64,000 nt of DNA from Promicromonospora sp. AC04 (GTDB lineage: Bacteria > Actinomycetota > Actinomycetes > Actinomycetales > Cellulomonadaceae). The first letter of the stretch is position 1. Every line of letters starts with the position of its first letter. The notes under the pieces were generated by a model. That model searched no databases and was not told where the DNA came from. It worked only from the letters and a program-made list of their open reading frames with translations. A program made the translations under genes and the position numbers. Shown here piece after piece: positions 28,662 through 38,481 of this stretch. Where the stretch lies: the NCBI RefSeq assembly GCF_003058225.1, contig NZ_QBUG01000014.1, positions 1 through 64,000 on the forward strand, in the 5' to 3' direction.

Positions 28662-30140
28662 GTGACCGAGGACCGCACCGCCCAGACCCTCCGTTCGATC
28701 GCCCCCTACCTCGCCGAGTGGGCCTCCTTCCAGGCCGCCTACCACGGCATCCCGGGCCTCCAGCTGGCCGTCGGACGGCGCGGCGAGGTCTTCGTGGACC
28801 TGGCCTGGGGCAAGGCCGACGTCGAGACCGGTGAGGACCTCACTAGCGACCACCTGTTCCGCATCGCGTCCCACTCCAAGACGTTCACCGGCGTCCTCGT
28901 GATGCAGCTCGTCGAGCGCGGCGAGCTGCGCCTGGACGACGCCGTGGGCGACCTCGTGCCGGAGCTCGACGGCTCGCGCGCCGCCGGCATCACCGTCCGC
29001 GAGCTGCTCGGCCACCAGGCCGGGATCATCCGCGACTCCTCCGACGGCGACTTCTGGCAGCACCACAAGCCCTTCCTCGACCGCGCGGAGGTGCTCGAGT
29101 GCGTGCGCGCCGAGGGCGTCGTGTTCGAGCCCAACGAGCACTTCAAGTACACGAACATCGGCTACAGCCTGCTCGGCATCGTCATCGAGCAGGTCACCGG
29201 CAAGACGTACGACGAGGTGGCGCGCGCCGCCGTCGTCGAACCGCTGGGGCTGACCCGGACCGGGACCGAGCTGGACCCCGCCCGCGCCGCTGAGTACGCC
29301 GCCGGCCACACCGGCCGCATCACGCACGACGACGCCCGCCGCGTCATCCCGCACGTCGACACCCGCGCCATGGCCGCCGCCACCGGCTGGTACTCCACAG
29401 CCCTGGAGATGGTCCGCTACGGCGCCGCCCACGTGTTCGGCGACACCACCCTGATCAGCGACGCCAGCAAGCGCATCATGCAGCGCGAGGAGTCCCGCCT
29501 GGTGGTGCGCGGCAAGGAGGTCGGCCGGTACGGCGTCGGCATGGGACTCAGGACGATCGGGGACCGCGAGCTCGTCGGGCACTCCGGCGGATACCCCGGG
29601 CACATCACGCGCACGCACATCGACCCGGTCGACGGGCTCGTGGTCTCCTCCCTGACCAACGCCGTCGACGGCGCCGCCGAGCAGATCGCCACCGGCGTCA
29701 TCCAGCTGATCAACCTGGCGCTCGCGGCTGCGGCCGAGGTCGCCGCCGTGGAGACGGCGGGCGGGGCCGGGGTCGGCGCAGCCGGGAAGGGTGCCGACGG
29801 GAAGGGTGCCGACGGCGACCCGGTGCCGGCGATCCCGGCCGACGCGCCCCTCGGGCGCTTCGCCAACCTGTGGGGTGTCGTCGACGTCGTGGACCTCGGC
29901 GGGATCCTGCACGTGATCAACCCTCGCGCGGCGGAGCCCGCCGAGGTCGTGGAGCGGCTGGTCGTGTCCGAGGGCCGCCTGGTGCATGAGCCCGTCGCCG
30001 GGTTCGGCACGGTCGGCGAGCCGGTCCAGGTCGAGCGCGACGCCGACGGCGCCATCGTCTCCGCCCGGATCGGCGCCATGACGTCGTGGCCGGTCGAAGA
30101 CTTCCGGGCCCGCGGTCCGGTCCCGGATCGGCAGGGCTGA
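28662..30140 (+). CDS. Cytoplasmic serine hydrolase of the beta-lactamase/esterase fold, 492 aa
   Basis: It starts at GTG 28662 with GAGAGGAA before it. Catalytic motifs are S70-H-S-K73 in FRIASHSKTF, YTNIGYSLLG (YxN), and HSGGYPG. The C-terminal 130 residues form an extra domain after an Ala/Gly-rich linker (GVGAAGKGADGKGADGD), probably a beta-barrel like the ones in D-aminopeptidase/EstB relatives. No signal peptide is present, unlike most penicillin-binding relatives, so it probably acts as an esterase or amidase in the cytoplasm. It converges on the MBL gene with a 19 bp gap. Confidence 0.85.
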   Translation: MTEDRTAQTLRSIAPYLAEWASFQAAYHGIPGLQLAVGRRGEVFVDLAWGKADVETGEDLTSDHLFRIASHSKTFTGVLVMQLVERGELRLDDAVGDLVPELDGSRAAGITVRELLGHQAGIIRDSSDGDFWQHHKPFLDRAEVLECVRAEGVVFEPNEHFKYTNIGYSLLGIVIEQVTGKTYDEVARAAVVEPLGLTRTGTELDPARAAEYAAGHTGRITHDDARRVIPHVDTRAMAAATGWYSTALEMVRYGAAHVFGDTTLISDASKRIMQREESRLVVRGKEVGRYGVGMGLRTIGDRELVGHSGGYPGHITRTHIDPVDGLVVSSLTNAVDGAAEQIATGVIQLINLALAAAAEVAAVETAGGAGVGAAGKGADGKGADGDPVPAIPADAPLGRFANLWGVVDVVDLGGILHVINPRAAEPAEVVERLVVSEGRLVHEPVAGFGTVGEPVQVERDADGAIVSARIGAMTSWPVEDFRARGPVPDRQG

Positions 30141-30159
30141 CCAGAACCCGGTCTCCCCA

Positions 30160-31206
30160 CTACTGGCCGAGCCGGTCGCGCACCATCAGCTCCAGCACCT
30201 TCATGAAGCGGTGCGTGCCGGCTCGGCCAAGGACGAACGGGTTGCGTGCCCCAGTCGTCCCGTCGCGCAGCGCCCGCAGGCGGGCGAGCCCGTAGTCGGT
30301 CTGGGGGTGGTTGTTCAGCTCGACGTCGACGCCGGAGCGGTGCATCAGGGCGGCGTACTCGATCACCGAGCGCAGGTAGTCGCGCCTGCCCGACGTCGGC
30401 TTCGGGAGCCCCGTGCCGCCCCAGAGCATCGCCGTGTGCCGCCGCCCGTGCCACCACACGGGGAAGATCGGCGAGACGGTACCGGGGGTGTGGCCCGGCG
30501 TGTACGGGAGGTGGACGGTGGTGCCGCCCAGCGTGAGCCGCTGCCCGTCTGATATCTCCAGGTCGCGCTCGGGCACGTCGGGCGAGGGGTCCGTAGCGGC
30601 GAGGTCCCAGTCGGCGGGGCTCATCAGCACGCGGGCCCCGTACCGGTCGGCGAGGTACTGCGCCCCGCCGAAGTGGTCGGCATGCCCGTGGGCCACCACC
30701 ACGTACCGGATCCGCGCGGGGTCCACGCCCAGCGCCCGCAGCTCCGGGACCAGGATGTCCGCGGCCTGGTCCCGGGACTCCAGCGCGTCGACGAGGAGCA
30801 CGCCGTCGGCAGTCTCCACGGCCGTCGCCGAGACGAAGTCCGTGCCGACCACCGTGACGTTGTCGAATACCCGCGTGGGCTCCGGGTCCGGGGCGGACGG
30901 CGGCGGCCCGCCCGAGGTGAACGCCGCGATCAGCGCGAGCAGCACGGGATCGTCGCCCGCCAGCCGAGCGGCGCGCTCGGCCGGCGTGCCGGAACCGGAT
31001 CCAGGCGACGCGGTATCGGTCGCCGTTGCGCCGGATCCTGCCGCGTCGGCCGGTGGCGCGGTCGACCGCGGGGAATCGGACGGCCGCGCGCCGGACGACA
31101 GGCTCGCGCTCTCCGCCGGTTCCTTGGCGCAAGCGGCCAGGGCGACAAGCGCCGCCGCGGCGAGGAGGGCGCGACGCGAGAGCTCGGCATGACGCGGGAG
31201 ATCCAT
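30160..31206 (-). CDS. MBL-fold metallohydrolase lipoprotein, 348 aa
   Basis: I start at ATG 31206. The N-terminus has SRRALLAAAALVALAACAKE, a signal with twin arginine and the lipobox LAAC, so it is probably a membrane-anchored lipoprotein. A Ser/Pro-rich linker follows. The metallo-beta-lactamase domain carries VVAHGHADHFGG (HxHxDH), a TPGHTPGT histidine and a final GVDVELNNHPQTD histidine. It likely hydrolyses an ester or lactone outside the cell. The substrate is unknown. Confidence 0.85.
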   Translation of the reverse strand: MDLPRHAELSRRALLAAAALVALAACAKEPAESASLSSGARPSDSPRSTAPPADAAGSGATATDTASPGSGSGTPAERAARLAGDDPVLLALIAAFTSGGPPPSAPDPEPTRVFDNVTVVGTDFVSATAVETADGVLLVDALESRDQAADILVPELRALGVDPARIRYVVVAHGHADHFGGAQYLADRYGARVLMSPADWDLAATDPSPDVPERDLEISDGQRLTLGGTTVHLPYTPGHTPGTVSPIFPVWWHGRRHTAMLWGGTGLPKPTSGRRDYLRSVIEYAALMHRSGVDVELNNHPQTDYGLARLRALRDGTTGARNPFVLGRAGTHRFMKVLELMVRDRLGQ

Positions 31207-31288
31207 CGGCCGATCGTACGAAGGACCCTCCCGGCCTGCCGGTCGGCGCGCGAGGCCGACGCCAGGTCGAGGCCGTTGCCGCACGAGA

Positions 31289-31423: not shown

Positions 31424-32314
31424 GTGACTTTCAGCGAGGGCGGGCAGTTCGAAGGCGGCCGGGTACGCAAGGGTGGCGGACGGCGCGGCGGAGTGGCCGT
31501 GGGCGGCGGCGGCGTCGTCGTGATCGTCATTGCGCTGGCGTACATGCTGCTGACCGGCAACAGCCCGGCGGACATCCTCGGCGGGACCACCTCCGACGCC
31601 GGGGGTGCCGGCGAGGAGGGCTACGTCGGCGACTGCACAGCGGAGCAGGCCAACACCGACGCCGAGTGCCGGCTGAACGCGGCCGTCCAGTCGCTCGACG
31701 CCTACTGGGCCGCGACGCTCCCGGAGCAGGGCGGCGTCGACTACGAGCTGCCCGAGGTCGTCAGCTTCACCTCCGCTGTCGACACCGGGTGCGGGTCTGC
31801 GACGTCGTCCACGGGGCCGTTCTACTGCCCGGCCGACACCACCGTGTACGAGGACCTCGCGTTCTACGACCAGCTCTCCAGCCAGTTCGGGGCCGAGGGC
31901 GGCCCGCTCGCGGAGATGTACGTGACGGCGCACGAGTTCGGGCACCACATCGAGAACCAGCTCGGGCTGTTCGAGCGGGCCGACCGGTCGGGCACGGGCC
32001 CGGAGTCCGACTCCGTGCGCATCGAGCTGATGGCCGACTGCCTCGCCGGCATGTGGGCCGGCAACGCCGCGACCACCGAGGACCCGGACACGGGCGTCAC
32101 CTTCCTCGAACCCATCACGCGGGACGAGCTGGACCAGGCGCTGTCCGCCGCCGCTGCCGTGGGCGACGACAACATCCAGCGTCGGTCCGGTGGCGACGTC
32201 AACCCCGAGGCGTTCTCGCACGGCTCCAGCGAGCAGCGGGTCAAGTGGTTCTCGACCGGCTACAACGGCGGCACCATCCAGGACTGCAACGCGCTGGACG
32301 CGTCCACCCTCTGA
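31424..32314 (+). CDS. Neutral zinc metallopeptidase, YpfJ family, 296 aa
   Basis: It starts at GTG 31424. A basic Gly-rich cytoplasmic N-terminus (RVRKGGGRRGG) is followed by one membrane segment (VVVIVIALAYMLL). The extracellular peptidase domain (PF04228) has VTAHEFGHHIENQLG, with the HExxH-like HEFGHH zinc motif, and RIELMADCLAGMWA, whose Glu is the probable third ligand. Four conserved cysteines could form disulfides. The family is common but its substrate is not known. Confidence 0.9.
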   Translation: MTFSEGGQFEGGRVRKGGGRRGGVAVGGGGVVVIVIALAYMLLTGNSPADILGGTTSDAGGAGEEGYVGDCTAEQANTDAECRLNAAVQSLDAYWAATLPEQGGVDYELPEVVSFTSAVDTGCGSATSSTGPFYCPADTTVYEDLAFYDQLSSQFGAEGGPLAEMYVTAHEFGHHIENQLGLFERADRSGTGPESDSVRIELMADCLAGMWAGNAATTEDPDTGVTFLEPITRDELDQALSAAAAVGDDNIQRRSGGDVNPEAFSHGSSEQRVKWFSTGYNGGTIQDCNALDASTL

Positions 32315-32330
32315 CGTTACGGTTGCTGCC

Positions 32331-32381
32331 ATGTACTTCAGCGCACGCACGACGACGCCGGACCCCTCCGGCGCGCGCTGA
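32331..32381 (+). CDS. Threonine leader peptide, 16 aa (MYFSARTTTPDPSGAR)
   Basis: An ATG at 32331 encodes a 16-residue peptide with three consecutive Thr codons (ACG ACG ACG, 32349-32357). It sits 142 bp upstream of a threonyl-tRNA synthetase gene and just before a strong intrinsic terminator. TACGGT lies at a -10 spacing directly before the ATG, so the message may be leaderless. These features are those of ribosome-mediated transcription attenuation: scarce Thr-tRNA stalls the ribosome at the Thr codons and allows read-through. Confidence 0.7.
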   Translation: MYFSARTTTPDPSGAR

Positions 32382-32398
32382 TCTGCACTCAGCAACCA

Positions 32399-32428
32399 GG
32401 CCCCGGAGCTCGCTCCGGGGCCTTTGTC
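32399..32428 (+). terminator. Attenuator terminator upstream of the thrS-like gene
   Basis: GGCCCCGGAG (32399-32408), loop CTCG, CTCCGGGGCC (32413-32422), then TTT. The leader segment CTCCGG at 32366-32371 copies the right arm and can pair with the left arm, a possible antiterminator. Confidence 0.75.
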
Positions 32429-32472
32429 ATGCACGACGGCGCCGGGGCAGCTCCACCATCGAAGGAGCAACC

Positions 32473-33825
32473 ATGAACGTCCCCGCCAACGCTGTCCGTG
32501 CCGTCATCGATCATCGTGACCTCGGTCGCGACATGCGGATCTTCGACACCAGCCCGCTGGTCGGGCCCGGCCTGCCGCTCTGGCTGCCCGCCGGGGCGGC
32601 CGTGCGGTACGAGCTGGAGCAGTACGCGCGGGAGGTCGCGCTGCGCACCGGCTGCGAGCCCGTGTACTCGCCTGTGCTCGGCAAGCGGTCGCTGTTCGAG
32701 CGGTCGGGCCACTGGGCGAAGTTCGCGGACGACATGTTCCCGCCGATGTATCTCGGCGGCTCGGGTTCCGGGGCCGGTTCGGGTCCGGGAGTCGGTTCCG
32801 GGCCCGACGGCGGTCCGCAGGGCGAGGCGGGCGTCGCCGCCCCCGACTTCGACCCGCTCGTGCTGCGCCCCGCCAACTGCCCGCACCACGCGCAGATCTA
32901 CGCGTCCGAGCCCCGCTCGTACCGCGACCTGCCCGTCCGGTACTCGGAGCTCGCGCCGATGTTCCGCGCGGAGCGGTCCGGGGTGCTGTCCGGGCTGAGC
33001 CGCGTGCGGCAGATCAACCTCGACGACGCGCACGTCTTCTGCCGACCGGACCAGGTCGGGGCTGAGGTCCGTACCGCCCTGGTCGCCGTCCTGGAGGTGC
33101 TCGACACCCTGGGGATCGAGGTGTCGTACCTGCGCCTGTCAGGCCGGGACGACTCCGACAAGTGGCTGGGCGAGCCCGAGCAGTGGGCCGCGGCGGAGGA
33201 GGCACTACGGGAGGTGCTGGCTGACGTCGTCGCGCCGGCCGGGCTGCCATGGCAGGCCGAGGCGGGCGAAGCGGCGTTCTACGGTCCCAAGATCGACGTC
33301 CAGGTGCTCGACGCGCGCGGCCACGAGGAGACCCTCGCGACCGTGCAGCTCGACTTCAACCAGCCGGAGCGGTTCGACCTGACCTACGTCGCCGCCTCGG
33401 GCGAGCGTGAGCGGGTGGTGATGATCCACCGCGGCACCGTCGGGGCGATGGAGCGGATGGTCGCGTTCCTCCTGGAGCGGCACGCCGGGCGGCTCCCGTT
33501 CTGGCTCGCGCCGGTGCAGGTCTGCCTGCTTCCGGTGTCCGACGACGGGGCCGCTGCCGACGCGGCCGCGAAGCTGGCCGCCGACCTGCGCGCCCGGGGC
33601 CTGCGGGTCCGCGTCGAGCGGGACGGGTCGCTGGGCAACCGGATCCGCCTGGCCCGCAAGCGGCGGGACGCGCTGCTCGGCGTGCTCGGCCCGCGGGAGG
33701 TCGAGGCGGGGGTGCTCGCGGTGACCGACCCGGCGTCGGGCGCGAAGGCCGCCGTGCCGCTCGCGGAGCTGGGCGACCGGCTCGCGGAGGCGGCGCGGGG
33801 GCGGGTGCCGCGGGTCGCGCTCTGA
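32473..33825 (+). CDS. thrS: Short threonyl-tRNA synthetase, 450 aa
   Basis: GAAGGAG precedes the ATG. It has class II motifs FRAERSGVLSGLSRVRQINLDDAHVFC (motif 2) and RGTVGAMERMVAFLLE (motif 3). The three zinc ligands of ThrRS are present (Cys in ANCPHH, His in DDAHVFC, His in MIHRG). The C-terminal anticodon-binding domain starts near FWLAPVQVCLLPV. The TGS and N2 editing domains are absent, against about 640 aa in the usual enzyme. A Gly/Ser-rich insert of about 25 residues interrupts the catalytic domain after DDMFPPMYL. The canonical PMNCPGH reads PANCPHH. It is probably a second ThrRS, perhaps a stress- or inhibitor-tolerant copy controlled by the Thr leader. Confidence 0.88.
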   Translation: MNVPANAVRAVIDHRDLGRDMRIFDTSPLVGPGLPLWLPAGAAVRYELEQYAREVALRTGCEPVYSPVLGKRSLFERSGHWAKFADDMFPPMYLGGSGSGAGSGPGVGSGPDGGPQGEAGVAAPDFDPLVLRPANCPHHAQIYASEPRSYRDLPVRYSELAPMFRAERSGVLSGLSRVRQINLDDAHVFCRPDQVGAEVRTALVAVLEVLDTLGIEVSYLRLSGRDDSDKWLGEPEQWAAAEEALREVLADVVAPAGLPWQAEAGEAAFYGPKIDVQVLDARGHEETLATVQLDFNQPERFDLTYVAASGERERVVMIHRGTVGAMERMVAFLLERHAGRLPFWLAPVQVCLLPVSDDGAAADAAAKLAADLRARGLRVRVERDGSLGNRIRLARKRRDALLGVLGPREVEAGVLAVTDPASGAKAAVPLAELGDRLAEAARGRVPRVAL

Positions 33826-35511: not shown

Positions 35512-36723
35512 TCACCCGCCGGCAGGGCCGCGCGGGAACGCCCGCCGCCCCAGCAGCACGACGACGAGCGCCGCCACCACCAGCGCCCCGCCGACGTACG
35601 GCACGACGGCGACGCCCGCGCCGTCGAGCACGAGCGCCCCGAGCGCCGCGCCGCCGCCGATGCCGATGTTCGCGGTGGCGTTGACGAGCGCGCCGACGAC
35701 GTCGGGCGAGGCGCCGCGCGTCCGGATGGCCGCCGTCTGGAAGACGGCGGCGCAGGCGCCGAAGCCGATGCTCCACACCGCCGCGGCCGCGAGCGTGCCC
35801 ACCGTCCCGGGGAAGGCGAGCCCGAGCGCGAGGACCCCGCCGGCGACGACGGCGAGGGTGACCACCGTGGTCTGCCGGAGCCGGACGTCGAGCCGGGCGG
35901 CCGCGTACGCGGCGCCGATGAGGCCGAGCGCGCCGATCAGCAGCAGGGCGGGGCCGAGCGCGGCGGTGGCGAGCCCGGCGGCCAGGAGCAGCACCGATAT
36001 GTAGGTGTAGACCGTGTAGTGGCCGAGATAGACCAGGGCGTTCGCCGTGGTGACGCCGGCGAGGGCGGTGCGGCGGGCACCGCGGGCGGCGTCGTCCGGG
36101 GGAGCGCCGCCACCCGGGACCGACGGCAGCAGCAGCGCCGTGAGCACGCCGGCAAGCGCGCACGCCCCGGCCAGGACGAAGAAGGAGGTGCGCCACCCGA
36201 CGGCGGTGCCGAGCGACGTCGACAGGGGCACGCCGAGGACGAACCCGGCTGACGCCCCCAGCGTGACGAGCGCCAGGGCGCGGCCGGCGAGGTGCGGGCG
36301 CACCAGGCGCGAGGCGTACCCGATGCTCACCGAGAAGAAGACGGCGTGGGAGGCCCCGCCCAGCGCCCGGGCCACGGCGACGAGGGCGAACGTGGGCGCG
36401 AGGGCCACGATCACGTTGCTCAGGGTGTAGATCGCGAGGGCGCCGAGGAGCACGGCCTTGCGCGGCAGCCGGCGCGTGGCCGACGTCAGGGGGAGGGCGA
36501 GCGCCGCGACCATGAACGCGTACGCGGTGACCAGGAGCCCCGCGACGGCCTCGGAGACGGTGAGGTCGTCGCTGATCAGGGGGAGCAGGCCCACCGGGAC
36601 CAGCTCCGTCGTGATGGCGACGAACGTGGCCAGGGCCAGGGCGAACAGGCCGCCGGCCGCCTCGCGGACATCGCCCGGTTGCCAGGGCGTGGGCCGGGGG
36701 CTCGAGGTTGGCATGGGTCCCAT
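35512..36723 (-). CDS. MFS transporter (DHA1 family), 403 aa
   Basis: I start at ATG 36723 (ATG 36714 is also possible); codons upstream belong to the promoter region. It has 12 membrane segments. The loop after segment 2 carries ATRRLPRKAVLLG, the motif-A region of DHA1 exporters, and ATELVPVGLLPLIS is like AraJ/arabinose-efflux relatives. It is probably a proton-coupled drug or sugar efflux pump in the cytoplasmic membrane. It is divergent from the ABC-F gene. Confidence 0.88.
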   Translation of the reverse strand: MGPMPTSSPRPTPWQPGDVREAAGGLFALALATFVAITTELVPVGLLPLISDDLTVSEAVAGLLVTAYAFMVAALALPLTSATRRLPRKAVLLGALAIYTLSNVIVALAPTFALVAVARALGGASHAVFFSVSIGYASRLVRPHLAGRALALVTLGASAGFVLGVPLSTSLGTAVGWRTSFFVLAGACALAGVLTALLLPSVPGGGAPPDDAARGARRTALAGVTTANALVYLGHYTVYTYISVLLLAAGLATAALGPALLLIGALGLIGAAYAAARLDVRLRQTTVVTLAVVAGGVLALGLAFPGTVGTLAAAAVWSIGFGACAAVFQTAAIRTRGASPDVVGALVNATANIGIGGGAALGALVLDGAGVAVVPYVGGALVVAALVVVLLGRRAFPRGPAGG

Positions 36724-36882
36724 CCCAGACGGGGCCGGCCCGAATAACAAGGCGAACTGAAGAACAGTGAGATTCGTCGCGACCCGTCCGGTGCCGGGCC
36801 CGCACCCTCTAGACTGGACCGGCCCCCGCCGCCGTGGGCCGAACGACGAGCTGCCCACCCCTTAACTGTGAGGAACACCTGC

Positions 36883-38481
36883 GTGATCACTGCCCATGGC
36901 GTCGAGCTGCGCGTCGGCGCGCGCGTGCTGCTGAGCGAGGCCACCTTCCGGGTCGCCTCGGGCGACCGGATCGGCCTCGTCGGCCGTAACGGTGCCGGCA
37001 AGACCACGCTGACCAAGACCCTCGCGGGCGAGACCCAGCCGACGGGCGGGCAGATCGTGCGCGGCACCGACATCGGCTACCTGCCGCAGGACCCGCGCAC
37101 GGGCGACCTGGAGGTCCTCGCGATGGACCGCGTGCTGTCCGCGCGCGGCCTGGACAAGGTCATCGCGAAGATGCGCGCGGCCGAGGGCGAGATGGCGTCG
37201 GCGGACCCGGCGACGCAGAACGCCGCGATGGAGCGCTATCCCAAGCTGGAGGCGCGGTTCCTGGCCGCCGGCGGGTACTCCGCCGAGTCCGAGGCGCAGA
37301 TCATCACGGCGAACCTGGGCCTGGACGACCGCGTCCTGGCGCAGCCGCTCGGCACCCTCTCCGGCGGCCAGCGCCGCCGGATCGAGCTGGCGCGCATCCT
37401 GTTCAGCGGTGTCGAGACGCTGCTGCTGGACGAGCCCACCAACCACCTCGACGCCGACTCGATCATCTGGCTGCGCGACTACCTGCGGGCGTACAACGGT
37501 GGCTTCATCGTGATCAGCCACGACGTCGACCTGCTGCGCGCCACCGTGAACAAGGTGTTCCACCTGGACGCGAACCGGGGCGAGCTCGACCAGTACAACC
37601 TGGGCTGGGACAGCTACCTGGAGCAGCGCGAGACGGACGAGCGGCGTCGTCGGCGGGAGCGGGCCAACGCCGAGAAGAAGGCAGGCACGCTGCTCGCCCA
37701 GGCCGAGAAGATGCGGGCCAAGGCGACCAAGGCGACCGCCGCGCAGAACATGATCAAGCGCGCCGAGAAGATGCTCGGCGGGCTGGAGGCCGAGCGCGCC
37801 TCGGACCGCGTGGCCAAGCTGCGCTTCCCGACGCCCGCGCCCTGCGGGCGCACGCCCCTGACCGCGAGCGGGCTGTCCAAGGCGTACGGGTCCCAGGAGG
37901 TGTTCGCCGGGGTCGACCTGGCGATCGACCGCGGGTCCCGCGTCGTCGTGCTCGGCTTCAACGGTGCGGGCAAGACGACGCTGCTGCGCATCCTGGCGGG
38001 CGTCGAGGCCCCGGACACGGGCGAGGTCGAGCCCGGCCACGGCCTCAAGCTCGGCTACTACGCCCAGGAGCACGACACGCTCGACATGAACGTGACGGTC
38101 GTGGAGAACCTGCGGCACGCCGCGCCCGACCTCACGGACACGCAGGTGCGCTCGGTGCTCGGCTCGTTCCTGTTCAGCGGGGACGACGCCGACAAGCCCA
38201 CCAGCGTGCTGTCCGGCGGCGAGAAGACGCGGCTGGCGCTTGCGACGATCGTGGTGTCCGGCGCGAACGTGCTGCTCCTGGACGAGCCGACCAACAACCT
38301 CGACCCAGCGTCGCGCGCCGAGATCCTCGGAGCCCTGAAGACGTACGAGGGCGCGGTGGTCATGGTGACCCACGACGACGGCGCCGTCGAGGCCCTGGAG
38401 CCCGAGCGCGTCCTCCTGCTGCCCGACGGCGACGAGGACCTCTGGAACGACAGCTACCAGGAGCTGGTCTCGCTCGCCTGA
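36883..38481 (+). CDS. ABC-F family ATPase, 532 aa
   Basis: It starts at GTG 36883 with GAGGAA upstream. Two ATPase domains are present: Walker A GRNGAGKTTLTKTL and GFNGAGKTTLLRIL, signatures LSGGQRRR and LSGGEKTR, and Walker B LLLDEPTNHLD and LLLDEPTNNLD. A charged helical linker (residues about 245-310, ERRRRRERANAEKKAGTLLAQAEKMRAK) joins them. There are no membrane segments. ABC-F proteins bind the ribosome E site and relieve stalled translation or antibiotic block. Which subfamily it belongs to cannot be told from here. Confidence 0.92.
   Translation: MITAHGVELRVGARVLLSEATFRVASGDRIGLVGRNGAGKTTLTKTLAGETQPTGGQIVRGTDIGYLPQDPRTGDLEVLAMDRVLSARGLDKVIAKMRAAEGEMASADPATQNAAMERYPKLEARFLAAGGYSAESEAQIITANLGLDDRVLAQPLGTLSGGQRRRIELARILFSGVETLLLDEPTNHLDADSIIWLRDYLRAYNGGFIVISHDVDLLRATVNKVFHLDANRGELDQYNLGWDSYLEQRETDERRRRRERANAEKKAGTLLAQAEKMRAKATKATAAQNMIKRAEKMLGGLEAERASDRVAKLRFPTPAPCGRTPLTASGLSKAYGSQEVFAGVDLAIDRGSRVVVLGFNGAGKTTLLRILAGVEAPDTGEVEPGHGLKLGYYAQEHDTLDMNVTVVENLRHAAPDLTDTQVRSVLGSFLFSGDDADKPTSVLSGGEKTRLALATIVVSGANVLLLDEPTNNLDPASRAEILGALKTYEGAVVMVTHDDGAVEALEPERVLLLPDGDEDLWNDSYQELVSLA

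Follow-up and report, generated by a model that had tools for sequence, protein, structure and literature searches.

A conserved threonine-specific leader-peptide attenuator predicted before the accessory threonyl-tRNA synthetase gene of Promicromonospora and other actinobacteria

The gene of an accessory threonyl-tRNA synthetase (ThrRS) in Promicromonospora sp. AC04 is preceded by a member of a real, conserved and Thr-specific attenuator family, which represents a known mechanism in a new, well-defined setting. The element lies in the analyzed stretch of 64,000 nucleotides (contig NZ_QBUG01000014.1, positions 1 to 64,000; hereafter the window), where a run of Thr codons, mutually exclusive RNA arms and a terminator between leader and gene, three of the features by which attenuators are recognized, are present. 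As judged from the sequence, it is very probably a ribosome-mediated, Thr-tRNA-specific transcription attenuator controlling an inducible accessory enzyme. The transcript would begin with the A of the start codon ATG of the leader, and this leaderless message would be loaded with a ribosome. With plentiful Thr-tRNA the ribosome would reach the stop codon and cover arm 2, leaving arms 3 and 4 to form the terminator; with no ribosome loaded, arm 2 would be held by arm 1 and the terminator would form too. With Thr-tRNA made scarce by threonine shortage or because the housekeeping ThrRS fails or is inhibited, the ribosome would stall on Thr-Thr-Thr and cover arm 1, and arm 3 would be captured by arm 2 while arm 4 has yet to be transcribed. 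The resulting antiterminator (arm 2 with arm 3) would allow readthrough of RNA polymerase into the accessory ThrRS gene, the product of which presumably serves as a backup for charging.

All parts of the element, including the ThrRS gene, are located on the plus strand. The leader ORF (32331-32381) consists of 16 codons and a stop, encodes the peptide MYFSARTTTPDPSGAR, is conserved in relatives, and contains the Thr codons ACG ACG ACG at 32349-32357, so that the 16-codon Thr-Thr-Thr ORF reported in the preliminary description is borne out. A -10 box TACGGT (32318-32323) ends 7 nt upstream of the leader ATG, the distance required for a leaderless start, and a weak -35-like CTGGAC, read by eye, is located 18 nt upstream of it (32294-32299). 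The leaderless message suggested in the same description remains a prediction, now strengthened by conservation of this spacing in relatives. Directly upstream of the leader, on the same strand, lies a gene of a neutral zinc metallopeptidase of the KPN_02809 family (31424-32314).

Arm 1, GCCGGA (32357-32362), folds with arm 2 and lies, in the masking model described below, under a ribosome stalled at the Thr codons. Arm 2, CTCCGGC (32366-32372), has either arm 1 or arm 3 as a partner according to folding, permutation and masking. Arms 3 and 4, AGGCCCCGGAG (32398-32408) and CTCCGGGGCCT (32413-32423), were assigned by folding as the left and right arms of the terminator, the antiterminator partner being part of the former (32403-32408). 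A short U-rich tail (32424-32431, 4 U in 8 nt) follows. Three classical alternatives arise from the CCGG cores of arms 1 to 3 and their complement in arm 4: 1:2 (32357-32362 with 32367-32372), 2:3 (CTCCGG at 32366-32371 with CCGGAG at 32403-32408) and 3:4 (32398-32408 with 32413-32423). The terminator hairpin, 32398-32423, has 11 bp and a 4-nt loop, is followed by UUGUC and amounts to -23.9 kcal/mol, while the whole RNA 32331-32430 folds with -53 kcal/mol vs -33.6 (sd 3.4) in shuffled sequences, none of 200 being as low. Thus, the strong intrinsic terminator noticed earlier after the leader was recovered with its U-rich tail, as was the leader copy of part of its right arm (CTCCGG, 32366-32371); the antiterminator, previously only proposed as possible, is supported computationally by the complementarity of this copy to CCGGAG of the left arm, which is conserved in relatives. 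Further downstream, segment 5, AGCTCC (32449-32454), complements 32405-32410 and, partly, the Shine-Dalgarno sequence AAGGAG of the ThrRS gene (32462-32467). In the Rfam search of the window no family reached its gathering score, and the T-box riboswitch was absent even among the weak matches at 32200-32600.

The product of the regulated gene (32473-33825, 450 aa) matches TIGR00418 with 395 bits (cut-off 383.65) from model position 171 on. Pfam analysis revealed just two domains, the class II core and one for anticodon binding, and found neither TGS nor editing domains in the 450-aa protein. A full-length ThrRS is encoded elsewhere in the genome and shares 44% identity with the window protein across most of the core. 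The gene after the leader is therefore a ThrRS gene, as initially supposed, and the initial view has to be changed in that its product is an accessory enzyme beside a housekeeping one. The nearest named relatives of the window ThrRS belong to Promicromonospora, and 12 of the 13 genomes of this genus in the family search, the present one included, possess it (genome G117 does not). Among 394 genomes of the class, the accessory type scored 482-692 bits, with the next matches not exceeding 411; by row count it occurs in 62 genomes, again including the present one, each with at least one further ThrRS match. In the midpoint-rooted tree of 60 ThrRS core sequences, 30 accessory representatives formed one clade (support 0.939) and 27 canonical ones another (0.957), which also takes in the protein from Acetothermia. 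The ThrRS of locus L153 (genome G740) fell just outside the accessory clade; it has a Thr-Thr-Thr-Pro leader as well, and may represent an early branch. The association described here would link charging stress to a widespread second ThrRS that has been little studied, and it opens to testing the question why a ThrRS devoid of an editing domain is retained by many actinobacteria.

Conservation of the leader was analyzed in 116 fetched loci: the family search contributed 19 and the class search 61, and a further 36 were taken from the 39 named loci. L070-L072 (archaeal and Chloroflexota, distant partial matches with no leader) and G490, whose locus lies 57 nt from the contig start, stand outside this set; 80 of 81 references were aligned, L091 being omitted. 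A leader ORF with three Thr codons precedes the accessory gene in 114 of the 116 loci, duplicates included; since some loci were fetched twice (the window, for example, is both L001 and L073), the 98 distinct leaders are the better number. The two loci with no leader are L066, from a non-actinobacterial Acetothermia MAG, and L133, where the contig end leaves about 110 nt. Retention of the Thr codons in relatives, which the preliminary description had named as a check, was found in 19/19 same-family and 35/36 named loci, the exception being the non-actinobacterial MAG. All 98 distinct leaders have three Thr codons (ACG ACG ACG in 91), followed by Pro in 97 and by Ser in one. TANNNT is located 6-7 nt before the leader start in 97/98, a figure favored by our preference for an in-frame start with a -10 box where several starts existed. 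This start-choice bias is countered by the fact that only 154 short ORFs with leaderless spacing occur in the 116 loci (449 kb, both strands), and 113 of them encode Thr-Thr-Thr-Pro/Ser. As a control, upstream regions of canonical thrS genes (sets of 12 and 29) were inspected, and a Thr-Thr-Thr leader was detected in 2 of the 41. The phylum search added two high-scoring loci with such a leader, L151 and L153; none was found at its loci L154 (477 bits), L155 and L156.

RNAalifold applied to the MAFFT alignment returned a consensus structure (R1) of 3 bp only, because MAFFT had misregistered the arms, and a covariance model, R2, was built on a structure set by hand. In this structure 84.1% of the cells pair, vs 81.4% in shuffles and 38-53% when it is slid. 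The R2 search of 197 genomes of the class gave 28 matches at E <= 2.2e-10 (8 of them had been model seeds), and comparison of coordinates placed all 28 directly upstream of the accessory ThrRS. A further 26 weak matches, scoring below 37 bits with E of 3e-4 to 0.01, were taken as chance; as 16 candidates per genome were scored, weak relatives elsewhere may be missed. These results add a conserved regulatory RNA family, one that had no Rfam match in the window, and its predicted signal is uncharged tRNA-Thr.

A hairpin follows the leader in all 98 cases, the best ones averaging -25.6 kcal/mol (range -36.1 to -8.7). At least 3 U occur in the next 8 nt in 60 leaders, and fewer than 3 in 38. Beyond CCGG the 2:3 helix varies on both sides between clades, its second position being C-G, U-A or U-G and its third C-G, U-A or G-C. 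The extension beyond CCGG amounts to 2.23 pairs for a leader's own arms vs 1.65 for permuted ones (0/10000 permutations as high, relatedness uncorrected), as calculated for 35 distinct combinations from 97 leaders, L075 not being placed. Whole-duplex energies discriminate weakly, since they are noisy in GC-rich RNA: own arms beat swapped ones in 12 of 17 clades only, and shuffled leaders were often equal. In the masking model, which hides the ribosome footprint from pairing and ends the transcript immediately behind the terminator loop, pairing of arm 3 with arm 2 was predicted for 6/98 leaders with no ribosome, for 90, 88 and 83 of 98 with the ribosome stalled at the first, second and third Thr codon, respectively, and for 4/98 with the ribosome at the stop codon. 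The window leader behaves as a clean switch over these five states (0, 1, 1, 1, 0). The full three-state pattern was obtained with 80 of the 98 leaders, compared to 297/980 after shuffling of the leader 3' half; that is, 18 of 98 leaders fail the test and 30% of shuffled GC-rich sequence passes it. Equilibrium energies favor the terminator in every ribosome state, which means that the switch must be kinetic. Such a compact leaderless switch is offered for study.

An additional input may act at the promoter. GAAAW occurs at -70 to -33 of the leader start in 29/98 leaders (L085, L087 and L096 among them), vs 5/828 control windows, and begins 32-34 nt before the -10 box in 28 of the 29. This fixed distance fits the WblC/WhiB7 motif GAAAWY, which sits 3 nt upstream of the -35 element in the published description of the motif (PMC7157823). 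The site was found in none of the 12 Promicromonospora leaders, the window included. A further observation concerns loci L135 (genome G575) and L136 (genome G552), where a leaderless Thr-Thr-Thr-Pro leader with a terminator precedes a canonical full-length thrS. Both genomes belong to one family and contain one ThrRS match each, hence no accessory gene. Their enzymes nest inside the canonical clade, and the attenuator apparently shifted to, or arose anew on, the housekeeping thrS where the spare is missing; as the two are neighbors in the tree, one event is possible. An attenuator on one or other of two paralogous genes is exemplified here. Tentatively, and somewhat short of probable in our estimation, the data could be combined into a class-wide two-input system, in which an editing-less spare ThrRS is governed by a Thr attenuator and, in many lineages, a WhiB7-type promoter, with the attenuator sometimes on the housekeeping thrS. 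If so, the spare ThrRS would be made only under translation stress together with Thr-tRNA shortage, for example upon attack by ThrRS-targeting natural products.

It is possible, albeit rather unlikely, that the spare ThrRS chiefly provides resistance to ThrRS inhibitors such as borrelidin and obafluorin, with the attenuator as its inducible control. Second ThrRS copies confer such resistance elsewhere, as described in the published account of ObaO (PMC11252418), and thrS2 is listed among the WblC-activated genes of S. coelicolor, i.e., within its antibiotic-stress regulon, in the WblC study cited above (PMC7157823). The position of E. coli Leu489 is occupied by Gln in 74/80 accessory proteins (loci fetched twice counted twice), but Gln is present there in the housekeeping ThrRS of the same organism as well (among 11 other canonical enzymes of this family, Leu is found in 8 and Glu in 3), and Gly463 is kept in the accessory ThrRS. 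Gln at this position was not taken as a resistance marker, and no resistance claim is made. This explanation concerns the role of the enzyme; it is compatible with the attenuator and does not exclude it.

Control at the level of translation was considered as well: stalling would alter the pairing between the Shine-Dalgarno sequence and segment 5, and in some lineages at least the hairpin would not act as a terminator. Covariation links segment 5 to the left arm and loop of the terminator (29 of 31 representatives above the swapped mean, 0/10000 permutations) and, in 20 of 31 representatives (4/10000), to the Shine-Dalgarno region, two of the 33 chosen representatives having been dropped; the absence of a U tail in several leaders (L102, L103, L112, L116) also points in this direction. 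On the other hand, Shine-Dalgarno accessibility remained at 0.26-0.27 in every ribosome-masked state, pairing of this sequence barely exceeded that in shuffles (0.75 vs 0.70), and the window hairpin, with its U-rich tail, makes a good terminator. We regard translational control as improbable on these grounds, and Shine-Dalgarno switching via segment 5 was set aside as folding predicts no accessibility change between the states. The leaders with no U tail after the hairpin, namely L102, L103, L112, L116 and similar ones, have perhaps shifted to translational control. Positions 32405-32410, in the terminator left arm and loop, and 32449-32454 stay complementary across clades. Finally, that the short ORF is non-regulatory and the hairpin merely the terminator of the metallopeptidase gene ending at 32314 is hardly credible: that gene is on the same strand with the hairpin within the gap, and its transcript may end there too, but the entire leader-hairpin unit accompanies the accessory ThrRS in many genera, which contradicts a terminator-only role.

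Transcription attenuation by a Thr leader, the explanation preferred here, has several parallels. Thr codons in the leader peptide control the terminator of E. coli thrLABC, but this is a biosynthetic operon, whose leader combines Thr and Ile codons and has its own ribosome-binding site. Leaderless polycysteine short ORFs of mycobacteria, reportedly characterized as attenuators by Canestrari in 2020, share with our element the leaderless start and the codon run for the sensed amino acid, but respond to cysteine and control operons rather than a synthetase. The second TrpRS of S. coelicolor, an enzyme under attenuation control, is reportedly inducible by indolmycin (Kitabatake, 2002); it is likewise an accessory synthetase, induced when the housekeeping paralogue fails, and differs in that tryptophan is the amino acid and that resistance is reported for it. 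A comparative study of such attenuators was reportedly made by Lopatovskaya in 2010 and may contain further cases.

Among published sequences, attenuators were predicted for trpS2 and leuS in Streptomyces (PMC1262725). As far as described there, these are likewise classical attenuators of actinobacterial aminoacyl-tRNA synthetase genes, and trpS2 is, similarly to the accessory ThrRS, one of two synthetase genes, but the amino acids are other than Thr; in front of threonine operons the authors of the same paper noticed no conserved structure. A precedent from actinobacteria is S. lividans TK24, where thrL encodes a Thr leader in front of a threonine-tRNA ligase gene and was found to be leaderless by RNA-seq (PMC8079986, Table 4). 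Counted by eye, its peptide, MKRVRPFLETTPGFVPAR, and the L087 leader coincide at 13 of 18 positions, and thrL is probably a member of the Thr-Thr-Thr leader family; the printed peptide suggests that the gene following it encodes the accessory ThrRS. Two Thr codons in a row are given for thrL, compared to three here, and the authors report one hairpin with no U tract, calling termination unclear; the sections of that account dealing with thrL name no antiterminator, conservation or accessory enzyme (PMC8079986). The earlier remark that no actinobacterial thr attenuator of this form was known thus does not stand in full, as thrL was in print, and holds in that, to judge from those sections, the family, the antiterminator and a clear terminator were not part of it. 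Apart from thrL, the literature searched, which included few subscription papers, yielded no Thr attenuator reported upstream of a ThrRS gene in actinobacteria. Anabaena likewise has a second ThrRS, T2, whose proofreading is impaired and which is induced alongside the housekeeping one, but the inducer is low zinc, and no leader peptide is mentioned in the relevant portion of the article (PMC4787780).

Several further genes surround this locus in the window. Matches to a class C beta-lactamase-related serine hydrolase, a metallo-beta-lactamase-fold protein and an MFS transporter (28671-31284 and 35512-36858) all score below the curated cut-offs. At 36868-38478 an ABC-F ATPase is encoded, which at 383.6 bits lies just above the cut-off of 380 for ribosomal protection-like ABC-F proteins.
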